A stretch of DNA of 38,092 nucleotides from Oscillospiraceae bacterium. GTDB lineage: Bacteria > Bacillota > Clostridia > Oscillospirales > Oscillospiraceae. The first letter of the stretch is position 1. Each line of letters begins with the position of its first letter. The DNA is taken from positions 1 to 38,092 of the forward strand of contig JAAWKB010000012.1 in the NCBI GenBank assembly GCA_022797115.1, written 5' to 3'. Both the position numbers and the translations under genes were made by a program. Below, piece after piece: positions 23,588 through 38,092 of this stretch. Under the pieces are notes generated by a model, which was given only the letters and a program-made list of their open reading frames with translations, was not told where the DNA came from and searched no databases.

Positions 23588-24580
23588 ATGGCAGAAGTCT
23601 TATCACAAAGTCAAATTGACGCGCTGCTGGCGGCGGCCCAAAGCGGGGCAATGGATCTCGACGCTCCGGCAGAGGAATCTTCGGAAAAGAAATACCGGAA
23701 GTACGACTTCTATAGCCCGCGCAAGTTCACGAAGGACCGGCTCAAGATGCTCAACAGCATTTTTGAGAACTATTCCCGCGTCATCAATTCCCGTATCAAC
23801 GCAATGCTCCACTCCACCTGTGAGATCGCGGTGGAGAGCGTGGAGGAGCAGCGCTACAACGAATTCTCCAACGCGCTGCGGGACAGCGATGTGCTGGCCC
23901 TGGTGAAGATCGATCAGGAGGCGCTCCAGGAGGAAACGCCGATTCTGGTGCATATGGACACCACCGTCCTGCTGACTATGATGGACCGCCTGATGGGCGG
24001 CGAAGGGGAGCCGGACGACAGCTTGGAGTCGGAGTACAACCTGACGGATGTAGAGCTGAAGATGTATGCAGACTTGATGTCGGATTTGATGGAGGTTCTC
24101 GGCCAAAGCTGGGAAAACTATATGAGTATCGACTTCGAGTACGTGCGCACAGAGGTCAACCCCACCATGGTCCAGCTCATCGGCTTTGATGAGACCGTGG
24201 TGATCGTGGGAATCCAGATCAATTTCCCCAACAACAGCAGCGGCCGCATGAGCATCTGCCTGCCCGGCGTGATGCTGGCCAATATTTTTGCAGAGATCGG
24301 CAAGAACAACACCCGACGCACCAGCGGGGAGGATAAGTCGGAGGAAATTTTCGACTCCCTGCGCGACACAGATTTGGAAATCATAGCGGAGCTGGGACGG
24401 ACGCATCTGCTGCTCAGCGACATCTACCATCTGAACGTGGGAGACGTGGTGAATATCAAGCAGCCCAAGGATACGCCCATTTTCCTGAATATCGGAGGCC
24501 GCCGCTGGTTTGACGGCCGTATGGGGGTCTACAACAAGCAGAAGGCCGTGAAAATCGGTGAGACATACATTAAGGCTTAA
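23588..24580 (+). CDS. fliM: Flagellar motor switch protein FliM
   Basis: N-term MAEVLSQSQIDALLAAAQSG; KYDFYSPRKFTKDRLKMLNSIFENYSR; C-term SpoA-like domain. Confidence 0.96.
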   Translation: MAEVLSQSQIDALLAAAQSGAMDLDAPAEESSEKKYRKYDFYSPRKFTKDRLKMLNSIFENYSRVINSRINAMLHSTCEIAVESVEEQRYNEFSNALRDSDVLALVKIDQEALQEETPILVHMDTTVLLTMMDRLMGGEGEPDDSLESEYNLTDVELKMYADLMSDLMEVLGQSWENYMSIDFEYVRTEVNPTMVQLIGFDETVVIVGIQINFPNNSSGRMSICLPGVMLANIFAEIGKNNTRRTSGEDKSEEIFDSLRDTDLEIIAELGRTHLLLSDIYHLNVGDVVNIKQPKDTPIFLNIGGRRWFDGRMGVYNKQKAVKIGETYIKA

Positions 24581-24594
24581 AGGAGCGGAACCGG

Positions 24595-25902
24595 ATGGGA
24601 GATACTATTTTTAGCCCGATGGTCATTGACGCCATCGGAGAGATCATGAACATCAGCCTCGGCTCCTCCGCCACAGCGGTGTCCAACATGCTGGATCACC
24701 GTGTAGACATCACGACGCCTACGGTCAGAGTTGTCAATGCGGAGGATTTCACCCTGGGGGAAATCGAGCCGGCCGTGGGCGTAGAGATCAAGTACGTCTG
24801 CGGTGTTGAAGGCAGCAATATCATGATGCTCAAGCGCAGCGATGTGAAAGCCATCGTGGATATCCTCCTTGGCTCGGAAACGGAGGATGAGGAGTTCCAA
24901 CTGGACGAGCTGAGTGTCAGCGTAGTCTGCGAGGTCATGAACCAGATGATGGGCGCGGCCTCTACGGCCCTGTCGGACCTGCTGGGCCGTATGGTGAACA
25001 TTTCCACCCCTGAGTCCTTCGAGATGGACGACTTGGATAAGGTGCGGCGTGAACACTTCCCTGTGCAGACGGGCCCCGTGGTTGTAGTCAGCTTTAAGCT
25101 GAGCATTGAGGGGATCGTTGAGAGCGAGTTCATGAACGTGATGAGCGTGGAGCTGGTTCAGGAGCTGGTGAGCGGCTTTGGGATTGACCTGGATAACGAG
25201 GGGGCCACCGACAGTGCCCCCCCGCCGCCCCCTGCCCCCGCCCCCACTCCGGCGCCTGCGCCGGAGCCCTCCGGGAGCGGCGGTACGCTCAGCCAGGAGG
25301 AGATCGAGCGCCTGCTTGCCGGCGGCGCAGACAGCGAACCTGCCCCGGCCCCCGCGCCAACGCCGGCTCCTGCACCGGCGGCAGCGCAGACGCCCCCGCC
25401 CCAGCAGATGCCGGCAGGGCAGCCGGCGGCGGGCCAGCCCCCCTACTATCAGGCGCCTCCCGGCGGCGCGCCCTATCCCCAGGTTCCCGGGCAGGGCGGA
25501 TACCCCTATCCGCCCATGTATCCGCCCTACTATATGTACCCGCCCCAGCCGCAGCAGCCGCCGGAGCCGAAGATGATCAACGCCAAAACGGCGAGTATGC
25601 CGGATCTGAACCCGGAGAACGCACTCCCGCAGGAGCAGCGGCAGAATCTGGATCTCATCATGTCCGTCTCCCTGGAGGTGGCTGTAGAGATCGGCCGTAC
25701 GCGCCGGAAGATCCAGGACATCGTCGCTTTCTCCAAGGGTTCGCTGGTGGTGCTGGACAAATTGGCGGGAGACCAAGTGGACCTGCTTGTCAACGGCCAA
25801 TGCATCGCCAGGGGCGACGTGGTGGTCATCGACGACAACTTCGGCATCCGTATTACAGAGATCCTCCAGAAACCCGACATCAATGAACTGGCAAAATTTT
25901 AA
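24595..25902 (+). CDS. fliY: Flagellar motor switch phosphatase FliY (CheC-like domain + Pro/Tyr-rich linker + FliN/SpoA domain)
   Basis: CheC-like motifs DAIGEIMN and SVVCEVMN; linker with LSQEEIERLLAGG; C-term LDLIMSVSLEVAVEIGRTRRKIQDIVAFSKGSLVVLDKLAGDQVDLLVNGQCIARGDVVVIDDNFGIRITEI. Confidence 0.95.
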   Translation: MGDTIFSPMVIDAIGEIMNISLGSSATAVSNMLDHRVDITTPTVRVVNAEDFTLGEIEPAVGVEIKYVCGVEGSNIMMLKRSDVKAIVDILLGSETEDEEFQLDELSVSVVCEVMNQMMGAASTALSDLLGRMVNISTPESFEMDDLDKVRREHFPVQTGPVVVVSFKLSIEGIVESEFMNVMSVELVQELVSGFGIDLDNEGATDSAPPPPPAPAPTPAPAPEPSGSGGTLSQEEIERLLAGGADSEPAPAPAPTPAPAPAAAQTPPPQQMPAGQPAAGQPPYYQAPPGGAPYPQVPGQGGYPYPPMYPPYYMYPPQPQQPPEPKMINAKTASMPDLNPENALPQEQRQNLDLIMSVSLEVAVEIGRTRRKIQDIVAFSKGSLVVLDKLAGDQVDLLVNGQCIARGDVVVIDDNFGIRITEILQKPDINELAKF

Positions 25903-25951: not shown

Positions 25952-26317
25952 ATGGCTAAGATTTTAGTGGTAGACGACGCCGCTTTCATGCGGAAGGTAA
26001 TCAAGGACACGCTCAGCAAGGCCGGGTATACGGATCTTCATGAGGCGGTAGACGGGGCGGATGCCGTGGAGAAATACAACTCCCTGAAGCCCAACCTGGT
26101 GCTCATGGATATCACCATGCCCAACATGGACGGCCTGGAGGCCCTCAAGGCCATCCGCGCTGCCGATGGCGGCGCAAACGTGGTCATGTGCTCCGCCATG
26201 GGCCAGGAGACCATGGTCATCGACGCCATCCGTTCCGGCGCAAAGGACTTCATTGTCAAGCCCTTCAAGGGTGAGCGCGTGCTCAAGACCGTTACTTCCA
26301 TCGTAGGCGAGCCCTGA
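25952..26317 (+). CDS. cheY: Chemotaxis response regulator CheY
   Basis: ILVVDDAAFMRKVIKDTL; LMDITMPNMDGLEALK; KPFKGERVL. Confidence 0.95.
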   Translation: MAKILVVDDAAFMRKVIKDTLSKAGYTDLHEAVDGADAVEKYNSLKPNLVLMDITMPNMDGLEALKAIRAADGGANVVMCSAMGQETMVIDAIRSGAKDFIVKPFKGERVLKTVTSIVGEP

Positions 26318-29609: not shown

Positions 29610-29632
29610 CTCAATCGGAAAGGACGGTGCCC

Positions 29633-31729
29633 ATGAGGCGAATTTTCCAAAACGGCATAGCACTGGCAGTGGTCATTGTTGTCTTGTTCATCGTCGTGCC
29701 CCTGCCTACGATCCTGCTGGATGTGCTGCTGGTGGTCAACATCTCCCTGTCCATGTTGATTCTGGTGATCACCATGACCGTGGCGGACGCTCTGGACTTT
29801 TCTATCTTCCCATCCCTGCTGCTGATTACCACGCTGTTCCGGCTGGGACTGAACGTGTCCACCACCCGGGCCATCCTGGGCAACAACGGCGATGCCGGCG
29901 GCGTGATTAAATCCTTCGGTTTGATGATCGCCCAGGGGAACATCGTACTGGGTATTATCATCTTCCTGATTATCGTGTTGGTGCAGATGATCGTCGTCAC
30001 CAAGGGCGCGGAGCGTGTGTCCGAAGTGGCCGCCCGCTTCACCTTGGACGCCATGCCCGGTAAGCAGATGGCCATTGACGCCGACCTCTCATCCGGCCTG
30101 ATCGACGAGCAGGGCGCCAAGGCCCGCCGCGCCAAGATTCAGAAGGAAGCCGATTTCTACGGCGCTATGGACGGCGCCACCAAGTTTGTCAAGGGTGACG
30201 CCACCCTGTCACTGATTATTACCGCCATCAACCTGGTGGGCGGACTGATTATGGGCAGCCTTGCCGGCGTGCAGGACGTGTGGAACGTCTACGCCATTGC
30301 CACCATCGGTGACGGCCTGGTCTCCCAGATCCCCTCCCTCATGATCTCCACGGCCACCGCCATGGTGGTCACCCGTACCGTCTCCGACGGCAGCCTCAAT
30401 GACGACGTGGTCCACCAGTTCGGCAGCCAGCCCCGGGCCATCCTCACGGCTGGTATCGTTATTGCCCTGCTGGGCCTGATCCCCGGTACGCCCCACATCC
30501 CCCTGTTGATCGTAGGCGTTGGCCTGGCGGTTGGCGGCTGGTATATCAGCGGCCAGATGACCCGCAAGGAGGCGGAGGCTGTGGCAGCGGCGGCAGTCCC
30601 TGTGGAGGAGACGCCTCAACCCAGCGCAACCGATTTCTATAAGGATATCAACAATGTCTACAGCCTCCTGACGGTGGACCCCATCGAAATGGAGTTTGGA
30701 TACAGCCTCATCCCCATGGTGGATGAGAACAGCGGCGGCAAGCTGATTGGCCGCAACGCCCTTTTCCGCCGCCAATACGCCCAGGATATGGGCTTCGTCA
30801 TCCCCTCCATCCGTTTCCACGATTCCTCGGCCCTGGGGACAAACCAGTATATCGTCAAGATCAAGGGCGAGGAGGTGGCCAGGGGCGAGATCCTGGTGGA
30901 CTACTTCCTGGCCCTGGAGCCCAGCAACCCCACTGGTGAGATCGATGGCATCGAGACCGTTGAGCCAGCCTACGGCATCCCCTCCCGGTGGATTTTGCCG
31001 GAGAACAAGGAGATGGCTGAGATTTACGGCTACACCGTCATTGACCCGCTCTCCGTCATGCAGACCCACCTCAGCGAGGTCATCCGCAGCCATGCCCACG
31101 AGCTGCTGGGCCGGTCGGAGGTGATCCAGCTGGTGGAGAACCTCAAGCGCACCGCCCCTGAGGTGGTGGAGGAGACGGTGCCCAATGTCCTCACCTACGC
31201 CAACCTGGAGCGCATTTTGCGCAACCTCCTCCGGGAGGGGGTTCCCATCCGGGATTTGGGCACAATTCTTGCGACCGCTGCGGACGCCTTGGCGACTACC
31301 AAGGATCTGGATATGGTGGCGGAGAACATCCGTGCCGCCCTCAGCCGCACCATCACCCGCCGTTTCTGCGAACACGGCCAGCTGCGGGTGGTTACGCTGG
31401 ACGCCGAGGTGGAAAAGCGCGTTATCTCGTCCCTGAGCAAGAACGAGCAGGGCATCTATCTGGCAATGGGGCCGGATTTGATGCAGCAAATTATTACCCA
31501 GCTGGCGGAGTACATCAAAAAGTTCAACGACCTCAGCCAAACCCCCATCGTGCTGACCAGCCAAGTGATCCGCATCTATCTCAGCCGGATGCTCTCCCAG
31601 TTCTATCCCAACCTGTATGTTCTGGCCTTCAATGAGATCACCAGTGACGTGCAGATCCAGTCCCTGGGCAACATTACCCTGTCGCGTGAGGCCGCAGGCC
31701 GGCCAGAGAGAAAGGCGGCCTCGGTATGA
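29633..31729 (+). CDS. flhA: Flagellar type III export protein FlhA
   Basis: [68 protein letters not shown]. Confidence 0.97.
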
Positions 31730-32547
31730 GCGGCGGGGGGAACCAGGCCCTTCGGGACACAGCAATCCCCTACACCCAGGAGGAGCTGGACGCCATGAGC
31801 AAGGAGGATTTGCTCCTGCTCTATAAGAGTACCGGCAGCCAGGAACTGAAATGGCCCCTGGCCCTGCGTTACGTGGGCCTGGTGAAAAGCATCGCGCTCC
31901 AGGTGCGGGGGGTCTACTCCAGCTTCGCCCAGGTGGACGACATCATCAACGAGGGCGTGCTGGCCCTGGTGGGTTCAATTGACAAGTTTGATCCTGACAA
32001 GGGGATCAAATTTGAGACCTTTGTCTCCAAACGCATCCGGGGAGCGGTGATCGATCTGGCCCGCCGTCAGGATTGGGTCCCCCGCAGTGTGCGCCGGAAA
32101 GCCAGGGAGATCGATCAGGCCAGCGTGGAGCTGTTCGCGGAGCTGGGCCGGTACCCCACAGACGAGGAGATCGCCCAACGCCTGGGCGTGAGCTCGAAGC
32201 AGTACCAGGAGGACCTTGCCAACTCCGCACTGTGCAACGTGCTGTCCCTGGATTCCCTGTTTGACGACCAGGACCAGGGAAGCCTGGATGTGCCCGACAG
32301 CGCAGCGGGCAGCCGTCCGGAGGATTCCCTGCTGCGCCAGGAGCTTTTGGACACCCTGACCGACGGCATTACCTCCCTGCGGGAGAATGAGCAGCTGGTC
32401 GTGTCCCTGTATTACAAGAAGAACCTCAGCATGAAGGAAATCGCCCAGGTGATGGAGGTCACAGAGCCCCGCATCTCCCAGATCCACTCCCGGGCCATCC
32501 AGAAGCTGAAGCTGTATATGAAACGCTACATGAACGGAGAGAAGTAA
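31726..32547 (+). CDS. fliA: RNA polymerase sigma-28 factor (FliA/SigD/WhiG family)
   Basis: region 2 [47 protein letters not shown]; region 4 [31 protein letters not shown] overlap with flhA. Confidence 0.95.
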
Positions 32548-36283: not shown

Positions 36284-37579
36284 ATGATGGCGAATCAAAA
36301 CGCAGGCAGGTACGTTGTCCGGCAGCCAATCAAGGATCTGCATGGCAAGGTGCTGGGCTATGAAATCCGCTACGATGGGGAAGACAGCGCCTATGACAAC
36401 GGGGAAAAGGGCAATCAGGACCATGCGGTGGCGGGCGCTGTCTATAACTTCCTTACCCAGAATACAGACAGGGCGTTCAGAGGAGCGACCCATTTCATGA
36501 ATTTTACGGTCAACCTCCTGATGAAGCAGACGCCAAAGCTCTTCAACCCCAGTGACCTGGTCATCCAAGTGGATGACAATGTAATTATCCATCCCCTGGC
36601 CATGCGCTTTGTGGAGCGGTACTCCAAAGAGGGGTACAAGGTGGCGGTCAATGAGTTCCAGTTTTCCCCGCGGTATATCTCTATCCTTGACCGCTTTGAT
36701 TATATTATGATCAACTTCCGCTCCACCAAGGACTCCAGCATCCGCGCGATTGTGGAGCTGGCCCACAGCATGGGCAAACGCTGTGTCGCCACAGGGATCG
36801 ACGACGAAACCCTCTACCAGAAGGCGTTCATCATGGAGGTGGACGCGATGGAGGGCCGCTATGTGGCGGAGCAGATGTTCACCGCCGTCCACTCCAGCAG
36901 CTACCTCCAGAGCAACTTCTTCCGCCTGATGGTGGCGATCACCCAGGATGAGCCGTCGGTGGACGAAATCGAGCAGATTATCTCCATGGATGCGACGCTC
37001 ACCTACAGCTTGCTGAAGATTGTCAACTCCGCTTATTTTGCCCTGCGCAACCGGGCTACTGAGGTTCATCAGGCCATTGTGATCCTAGGACTGGGGCAGC
37101 TGCGCCAGTGGATCTATCTGATGGGCACGGATAACTCCGAGGAGGAGATGGATGAGAGCCAGCAGGAGCTGCTCAAGCTCTCCTTCATCCGCGCAACCTT
37201 CGCCAGTGAGCTGATGAAGTTTGCCAAGAAGATGCCCATTGGCCGCAACGATGCCTATCTGCTGGGCATGTTCTCAACGTTGAACCATTTGATTGCCGCC
37301 CCGATGGAGGAGATCCTGGCGGAGATCCCTATTGCTGAACCAGTCAAAAAGGCCCTGCTCCATCACGAGGGCCGCTGCGGCCTGCTGTATGACTTGGTTC
37401 TCGGCTATGAGCGGGCGGACTGGTCCGTGATCGGCAGCCTGGCAGAGGAGCTGAATATCCCTGTTGATCAGCTGACAGACACCTATTTCCGGTGCCTGGA
37501 GGAAGTGAACACCATCTGGCAGCAGCTGATGGAGGTAAACAATGCCCCGGCTCCCGCCCCAGCGGAAAGCAAGGGATAA
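36284..37579 (+). CDS. EAL-like (degenerate) + HDOD domain protein (YuxH-like architecture)
   Basis: N-term RQPIKDLHGKVLGYEIRYDG with degenerate EAL core; HDOD core ATLTYSLLKIVNSAYFALRNRATEVHQAIVILGLGQLRQWIYLM. Confidence 0.88.
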   Translation: MMANQNAGRYVVRQPIKDLHGKVLGYEIRYDGEDSAYDNGEKGNQDHAVAGAVYNFLTQNTDRAFRGATHFMNFTVNLLMKQTPKLFNPSDLVIQVDDNVIIHPLAMRFVERYSKEGYKVAVNEFQFSPRYISILDRFDYIMINFRSTKDSSIRAIVELAHSMGKRCVATGIDDETLYQKAFIMEVDAMEGRYVAEQMFTAVHSSSYLQSNFFRLMVAITQDEPSVDEIEQIISMDATLTYSLLKIVNSAYFALRNRATEVHQAIVILGLGQLRQWIYLMGTDNSEEEMDESQQELLKLSFIRATFASELMKFAKKMPIGRNDAYLLGMFSTLNHLIAAPMEEILAEIPIAEPVKKALLHHEGRCGLLYDLVLGYERADWSVIGSLAEELNIPVDQLTDTYFRCLEEVNTIWQQLMEVNNAPAPAPAESKG

Positions 37580-37686: not shown

Positions 37687-38092
37687 TTACAGCATAAATT
37701 TTTGATTGTGCCGCGGATTGTCCATGACGACCTTGCAGGAGCGGGTGAGCTGGGCAAACACCGTGCTGTTAAAGCGGCTCTCATATACGGTGAGCATACC
37801 ATGGGCCTCGGAGCGGGGCACCACAACATATGATGGCTGGAGGTTGGTCAACGTCAGCGCCTTGACATCGGCTATGCAGCGAGGGCAGGTACATAGGCCA
37901 AACATGCTGATATATCGGGGGGCTTTCAGCTCCACCAGGTACTCCATTACGTTGATAATTTGGAGCTCCTCCGGGTCAGGCTGGGGTTCCGGCGCGGCGG
38001 GCTGCGGAGCAGGAGCAGGCTCCGGCTTGGGGGAGGGAGCAGGTTCACTTTCCGGGATACCACCCGCCAGCATCCGCTCGATGTCCTCCTGG
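37687..38092 (-). CDS. ComFB-domain protein with FliM/FliY-like N-terminal peptide; 5' end outside window
   Basis: ComFB-like NVMEYLVELKAPRYISMFGLCTCPRCIADVKALTLTNLQPSYVV; upstream in-frame codons to the window edge read QEDIERMLAGG, so the tracked Met is probably not the start. Confidence 0.82.
   Translation of the reverse strand, partial: QEDIERMLAGGIPESEPAPSPKPEPAPAPQPAAPEPQPDPEELQIINVMEYLVELKAPRYISMFGLCTCPRCIADVKALTLTNLQPSYVVVPRSEAHGMLTVYESRFNSTVFAQLTRSCKVVMDNPRHNQKFML

Follow-up and report, generated by a model that had tools for sequence, protein, structure and literature searches.

A ComFB domain that follows a short peptide of the type found in the flagellar switch proteins FliM and FliY, in a gene next to a flagellar cluster, raises the question of whether the peptide is a genuine part of the protein and what such a protein could do. 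The locus lies at the end of our window, which comprises the entire contig C15 (38092 b) of genome G000, an assembly of 139 contigs that is about 75% complete. Since the window is a whole contig, the comFB reading frame is cut by the contig end.

A comFB gene broken inside a motif repeat

The minus-strand frame 38091-37687 translates to QEDIERMLAGGIPESEPAPSPKPEPAPAPQPAAPEPQPDPEEL and then the ComFB domain, with QEDIERMLAGGIPESEPAPSPKPEPAPAPQP encoded ahead of the domain (Table 1). A Pfam profile search matched residues 46-126 of the ORF to PF10719 with 48.4 bits (E=1e-12; gathering cut-off 25 bits), and AlphaFold2 modelled the domain at a pLDDT of about 95. The model has the four-helix ComFB fold; its top PDB match is 4wai (TMt 0.70-0.74, probability 1.00) and 8hja was also matched. 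ComFB is a Zn-binding obligate dimer, and we took the residues to check from the literature on it (PMC4381287). Both the Zn-ligand positions C67, C69, C72 and H128, the last just past the domain, and the dimer residues N47 and Y88 are invariant in 22 sequences; at the position equivalent to B. subtilis N40, the ComFBs of this clade often have T. The original prediction of a ComFB domain next to a QEDIERMLAGG peptide is thus confirmed. It had also named ComFB proteins as cyclic-dinucleotide receptors, which agrees with published work: ComFB is able to bind c-di-AMP and c-di-GMP (PMC12313861; PDB 8hja). The late-competence ComFB equivalog NF052654 scored 30.8 bits, below its NCBIfam cut-off of 120, and the sequence similarity of the domain to CdgR is weak (E=0.0018).

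A DNA search with the terminal 91 bases of the window located the 5' half of the gene at the end of contig C61 of the same genome. Over these 91 nt, C61 and the window are 98% identical; two positions differ and the sequences diverge beyond, which marks them as distinct copies of a repeat. Read outward, C61 encodes MATAKKGAKSNKTAHVLNLLTAPGAAKEAP...RPLAPPVLEVARSNDAQISLQIKDALENELL...PAAIGGKLSQEDIERMLAGGIPESEPAPSPKPEPAPAPQPAATGGKLSQEDI and then stops. It thereby provides the N-terminus MATAKKGAKSNKTAHVLNLL, one complete motif copy, GGKLSQEDIERMLAGG, and a second copy that is broken off at GGKLSQEDI. The repeat has a period of 117 nt (39 aa) with at least two copies in the G000 gene, and it is inside this repeat that the assembly broke. 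That C61 and C15 are neighbouring contigs is supported by the single ComFB domain in the genome, the repeat shared by the two ends and the conserved synteny.

Table 1. Features of the comFB locus and its flagellar neighbours (window coordinates unless a contig is given).
Feature	Position	Strand	Remarks
3' part of long comFB gene	37687..38091	minus	134 aa, runs off the contig; 5' part at G000:C61:2-523, minus
EIDAL-type peptide QEDIERMLAGG	38059..38091	minus	Last copy of 39-aa tandem repeat; complete form GGKLSQEDIERMLAGG on C61
Pro/Ala/Glu-rich linker	37957..38058	minus	Low confidence and no helix in AlphaFold2
ComFB domain	37714..37956	minus	PF10719, E=1e-12; invariant columns; fold matches 4wai and 8hja
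parA, ParA/Soj-like ATPase	L058:553-1335 (G000:C61)		Just upstream of comFB, divergent from fliD
LSQSQIDALL, N-terminal CheY-P-binding type peptide of FliM	23600..23629	plus	Read from the sequence
fliY (CheC-like domain, linker, FliN domain)	24595..25902	plus	Pfam; NCBIfam NF005995 above cut-off
LSQEEIERLL in FliY linker	25288..25317	plus	Probable origin or template of the ComFB peptide
cheY, presumed source of the CheY-P ligand	25952..26317	plus	Sequence; fliY-adjacent homologues in relatives 95% identical
EAL-HDOD protein	36284..37579	plus	Last gene of fla/che operon, convergent with comFB; Pfam; order conserved in relatives

An N-terminus extended by an LSQ part had been predicted. The LSQ part is indeed present on C61 and completes the peptide; the placement did not hold, as the motif is internal, in the Pro/Ala linker, and tandemly repeated. 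GGKLSQEDIERMLAGG matches the LSQxxI[DE]xLL-type pattern of the EIDAL segment, which is the CheY-P site of FliM and FliY (PMC9126983). When all frames of 60 aa or more in the window and the first 12 kb of C61 were scanned, a strict LSQ-type pattern matched only FliM, FliY and comFB, and the peptide-bearing segments of the first two (MAEVLSQSQIDALLAAA and GGTLSQEEIERLLAGGADSEPAPAP) are as originally described. With the FliM/FliY peptide, the ComFB peptide shares the LSQxxIExLL core and flanks like those of same-genus FliY linkers. It differs in sitting in a protein without the SPOA (FliMN_C) and CheC-like domains: the window part contains ComFB only, and the C61 part no family. Judged by its sequence, LSQEDIERMLAGG from the ComFB repeats is a candidate CheY-P-binding peptide.

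The motif might also have been a divergent version of a conserved SxQIKxALExEL helix of related ComFBs; this was ruled out, as C61 encodes that helix in addition to the LSQ repeats. As the peptide is encoded in low-complexity DNA right where the contig ends, a misassembly could have fused fliY sequence to comFB. We rejected this explanation as extremely improbable: on C61, the peptide is found independently within this gene, together with an orthologous N-terminus, the peptide DNA is unlike that of the genome's own fliY (37/48 nt identical), and the same arrangement occurs inside contigs of G029, a different genus, and of Butyricicoccus.

Long ComFBs and their upstream parA

In a class-wide search, most ComFBs were short frames of about 90-130 aa without an N-terminal extension. 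The long ComFBs are laid out as a Lys-rich N-terminal helix (KxxKTAHVLNLL), a second conserved helix, a disordered linker and a C-terminal ComFB domain; in the relatives, the N-terminus has a KTAxVxNLL-type segment, the second helix centres around SxQI(R/K)xALExEL and the linker consists of Pro, Glu and Ala. In one ComFB linker (L117, G132) this second helix is doubled, as LSAQIHDALAAEL and LSDQIRSALEAEL. An AlphaFold2 model of a Butyricicoccus homologue shows a short low-confidence N-terminal helix and a confident helix at 123-152, with the motif copies as short, mostly low-confidence helices separated by disorder.

Loci were picked by the ComFB domain alone and not by parA. This yielded 95 distinct ComFBs in which 60 or more residues precede the domain; one of them is a false match inside a ParA, and 77 have the N-terminal signature. 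A parA gene lies upstream on the same strand in all 77, the first 20 residues carry a net charge of +1 to +5 in every case, and flagellar genes flank 75 of the 77, which supports the linkage to flagellar loci suspected from the window. The parA-coupled long ComFBs are found in Oscillospirales and Lachnospirales, many of them gut bacteria. Long ComFBs of other types, without the signature, mostly have a more distant ParA upstream; in several none was detected. Five of these loci (L038, L112, L134, L135 and L138) encode a ComFB with an N-terminus like MAKSKKxLDKDLMFxKIMPAL beside a more distant ParA (36-44% identity) and represent a second kind of ParA-ComFB pair. Clostridium sp. MD294 and relatives (L253, L255, L256) have an N-terminally extended ComFB at the same flagellar site, with no upstream ParA detected with the query used.

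Both the ParA-partner-like N-terminus and the upstream parA had escaped the original prediction because they are on another contig. The parA product matches AAA_31 (E=8e-50), its nearest PDB sequence is 8ray (ParA), and by NCBIfam and PDB sequence comparison it is Soj-like and not FlhG-like. As G000 has a further, stronger AAA_31/ParA-type match on a different contig, the copy beside comFB looks dedicated. In relatives, the parA-comFB operon is convergent with the fla/che operon, which ends in cheV and the EAL-HDOD gene, and divergent from fliD-fliS. Named genomes of Oscillibacter, [Clostridium] viride, Lawsonibacter and Lacrimispora share the order fla/che - comFB - parA - fliD - fliS; some genera retain parA-comFB and fliD, but the flagellar genes that adjoin comFB are different ones. 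Downstream of fliS, an FtsE-like ABC ATPase and an MCP are encoded near a gene for an FtsA/PilM-like protein of 657 aa with a weak ThiS-like stretch (L058:7931-9904). FlhF was above the TIGR03499 cut-off in 0 of 15 flagellated genomes; G000 itself is only 75% complete. At 29627-32547 of the window, fliA directly follows flhA with neither flhF nor flhG in between.

Partner proteins of ParA/MinD ATPases work via a charged, disordered N-terminus (PMC10241942). Because the N-terminus of the long ComFBs looks to be of this kind, parA is the next gene upstream and known ParA partners act via such N-termini, our primary and best reading is that the long ComFB is the partner, or cargo adaptor, of its dedicated ParA, that the cargo is flagellar or chemosensory, and that the linker peptides hold CheY-P or compete for it; for this reading as a whole we see about even chances. 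ParA-ParB, McdA-McdB, PomZ-PomX, ParC-ParP and PpfA-TlpT likewise combine an adjacent ATPase with a partner that has a positive flexible N-terminus, whereas here the putative partner is a ComFB, the neighbourhood is flagellar and activation of the ATPase is a prediction. FlhF-FlhG similarly places a SIMIBI ATPase beside flagellar genes, with FlhG contacting FliM/FliY; in contrast, no FlhF was found here, and it is a Soj-like ATPase that is paired, with ComFB. Neither B. subtilis ComFB (4wai) nor Synechocystis CdgR (8hja), which are alike to the long ComFB in C-terminal domain fold, Zn-ligand cysteines and dimer-interface N and Y, is known to carry a ParA-type N-terminus or EIDAL-type repeats.

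The original prediction had instead envisaged, with no part for ParA, an adaptor for a second messenger, able to bind CheY-P or to compete at the switch. A single protein does unite a ComFB domain and an EIDAL-type peptide beside flagellar genes; however, the strict coupling to parA, the conserved ParA-partner-like N-terminus and the many orthologues without the peptide make a ParA-independent adaptor highly unlikely.

Sporadic distribution of the putative docking motif

Contrary to the expectation that the motif would be kept in orthologues, it is absent from all 15 other same-genus orthologues (12 with full linkers and three truncated). EIDAL-type motifs were found in three lineages of long ComFBs and are missing in most orthologues, so that the core function of the protein cannot hinge on the motif. 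When we shuffled each linker in a set of 61 ComFB N-terminal regions of relatives, which does not include the G000 gene, 0.035 regions were expected to carry the motif by chance, compared to three observed (10 copies). The ComFB of G029 has the motif as GNGKLSQDEIERMLRAM. In Butyricicoccus, the ComFBs of G072, G451, G510 and G519, and that of locus L231, contain repeated (L/M)SDDAIAALFAQN-type units; the gene of G519 is also broken by a contig end. Within these repeats LSDDAIAALFAQN is constant and the spacers are variable, and the units may be functional equivalents of EIDAL, as their sequence suggests.

FliY linkers with 1-3 LSQEEIExLx copies were present in 25 of 30 tabulated genomes and absent from the four Butyricicoccus species, which have 3-5 motif copies in ComFB, and from G573. 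Related species differ in how many EIDAL-type copies their FliY linkers have, with numbers between 0 and 3. A Fisher test on the exchange of the motif between FliY and ComFB gives p=0.003, which is not valid as an independent test because the species are related. The exchange is a real pattern in one clade; it is not obligatory, because FliY and ComFB of G573 are both without the motif.

Such a patchy distribution, with the motif lacking in same-genus orthologues, is also what a near-neutral insertion would leave, that is, a FliY-like linker put into comFB by recombination or slippage without functional effect. Repetitive DNA that codes for Pro/Ala is present in both fliY and comFB, at a distance of about 12 kb, the repeats are 117-nt tandem units, and the sequence around the motif is similar to that of FliY linkers in the genus (GGTLSQEEIEKLMAGGIPSEP in G018). 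The motif occurs, however, in at least three lineages, and Butyricicoccus keeps LSDDAIAALFAQN while the spacers vary and FliY is without the motif. Nor is DNA transfer clear from codon choice: the Ser codon of the ComFB motif is TCC, whereas FliY linkers nearly always use AGC, and the best codon match covers 8/12 shared residues. We therefore regard a near-neutral insertion as unlikely.

A motif that moves between FliY and ComFB also fits a partner common to both, which could be the ParA ATPase itself. The peptide would then dock ParA and not CheY-P, as FlhG binds the C-ring via FliM/FliY, and the copies in FliY and ComFB would both recruit ParA. The FliM N-terminus is the site through which FlhG contacts FliM/N, and the B. 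subtilis FlhG also contacts FliY (PMC12826062); parA is the neighbour gene here and FlhF is missing. Most orthologues, however, keep parA beside a ComFB without the peptide, and this ParA is not of the FlhG type, which makes docking of ParA quite unlikely.

A putative ParA-ComFB positioning module

Under the reading of ComFB as a ParA partner, the Lys-rich N-terminal helix would engage ParA-ATP on the nucleoid, the disordered linker would serve as tether, and the ComFB domain, a Zn-binding dimer, would form the regulated or cargo end. By analogy to characterised ComFB/CdgR proteins, this domain possibly senses a cyclic dinucleotide. The conserved neighbourhood and the missing FlhF suggest that the cargo is flagellar or chemosensory. 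In G000, ComFB has also gained at least two EIDAL-type peptides of the FliY kind, with which ParA-ComFB most likely would retain CheY-P or compete for it with FliY and FliM. From the sequences, CheY-P docking would be a lineage-specific addition to a ParA adaptor.

The conserved ParA-ComFB pair in flagellar loci outweighs the peptide as a finding. We found no published ParA-ComFB flagellar module in the open-access literature. Tentatively, and with considerable doubt, ParA-ComFB could be a flagellar or chemosensory positioning system, as yet undescribed, that replaces FlhF-FlhG in Oscillospirales and Lachnospirales. It would be gated by cyclic dinucleotides and, in some species, linked to chemotaxis through CheY-P docking peptides that moved from FliY to ComFB.

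A ParA strictly coupled to ComFB in the flagellar loci of many genera is a direct candidate for controlling flagellar placement or number in gut Clostridia without FlhF. The pairing offers ComFB, only recently recognised as a cyclic-dinucleotide receptor, a concrete candidate partner and pathway outside cyanobacteria. The wandering CheY-P-type peptide provides a natural experiment, in which, depending on the species, FliY, ComFB alone or the two together carry the putative docking site. The motif-bearing ComFBs thereby hint that motors may be wired or placed in a manner not yet described.
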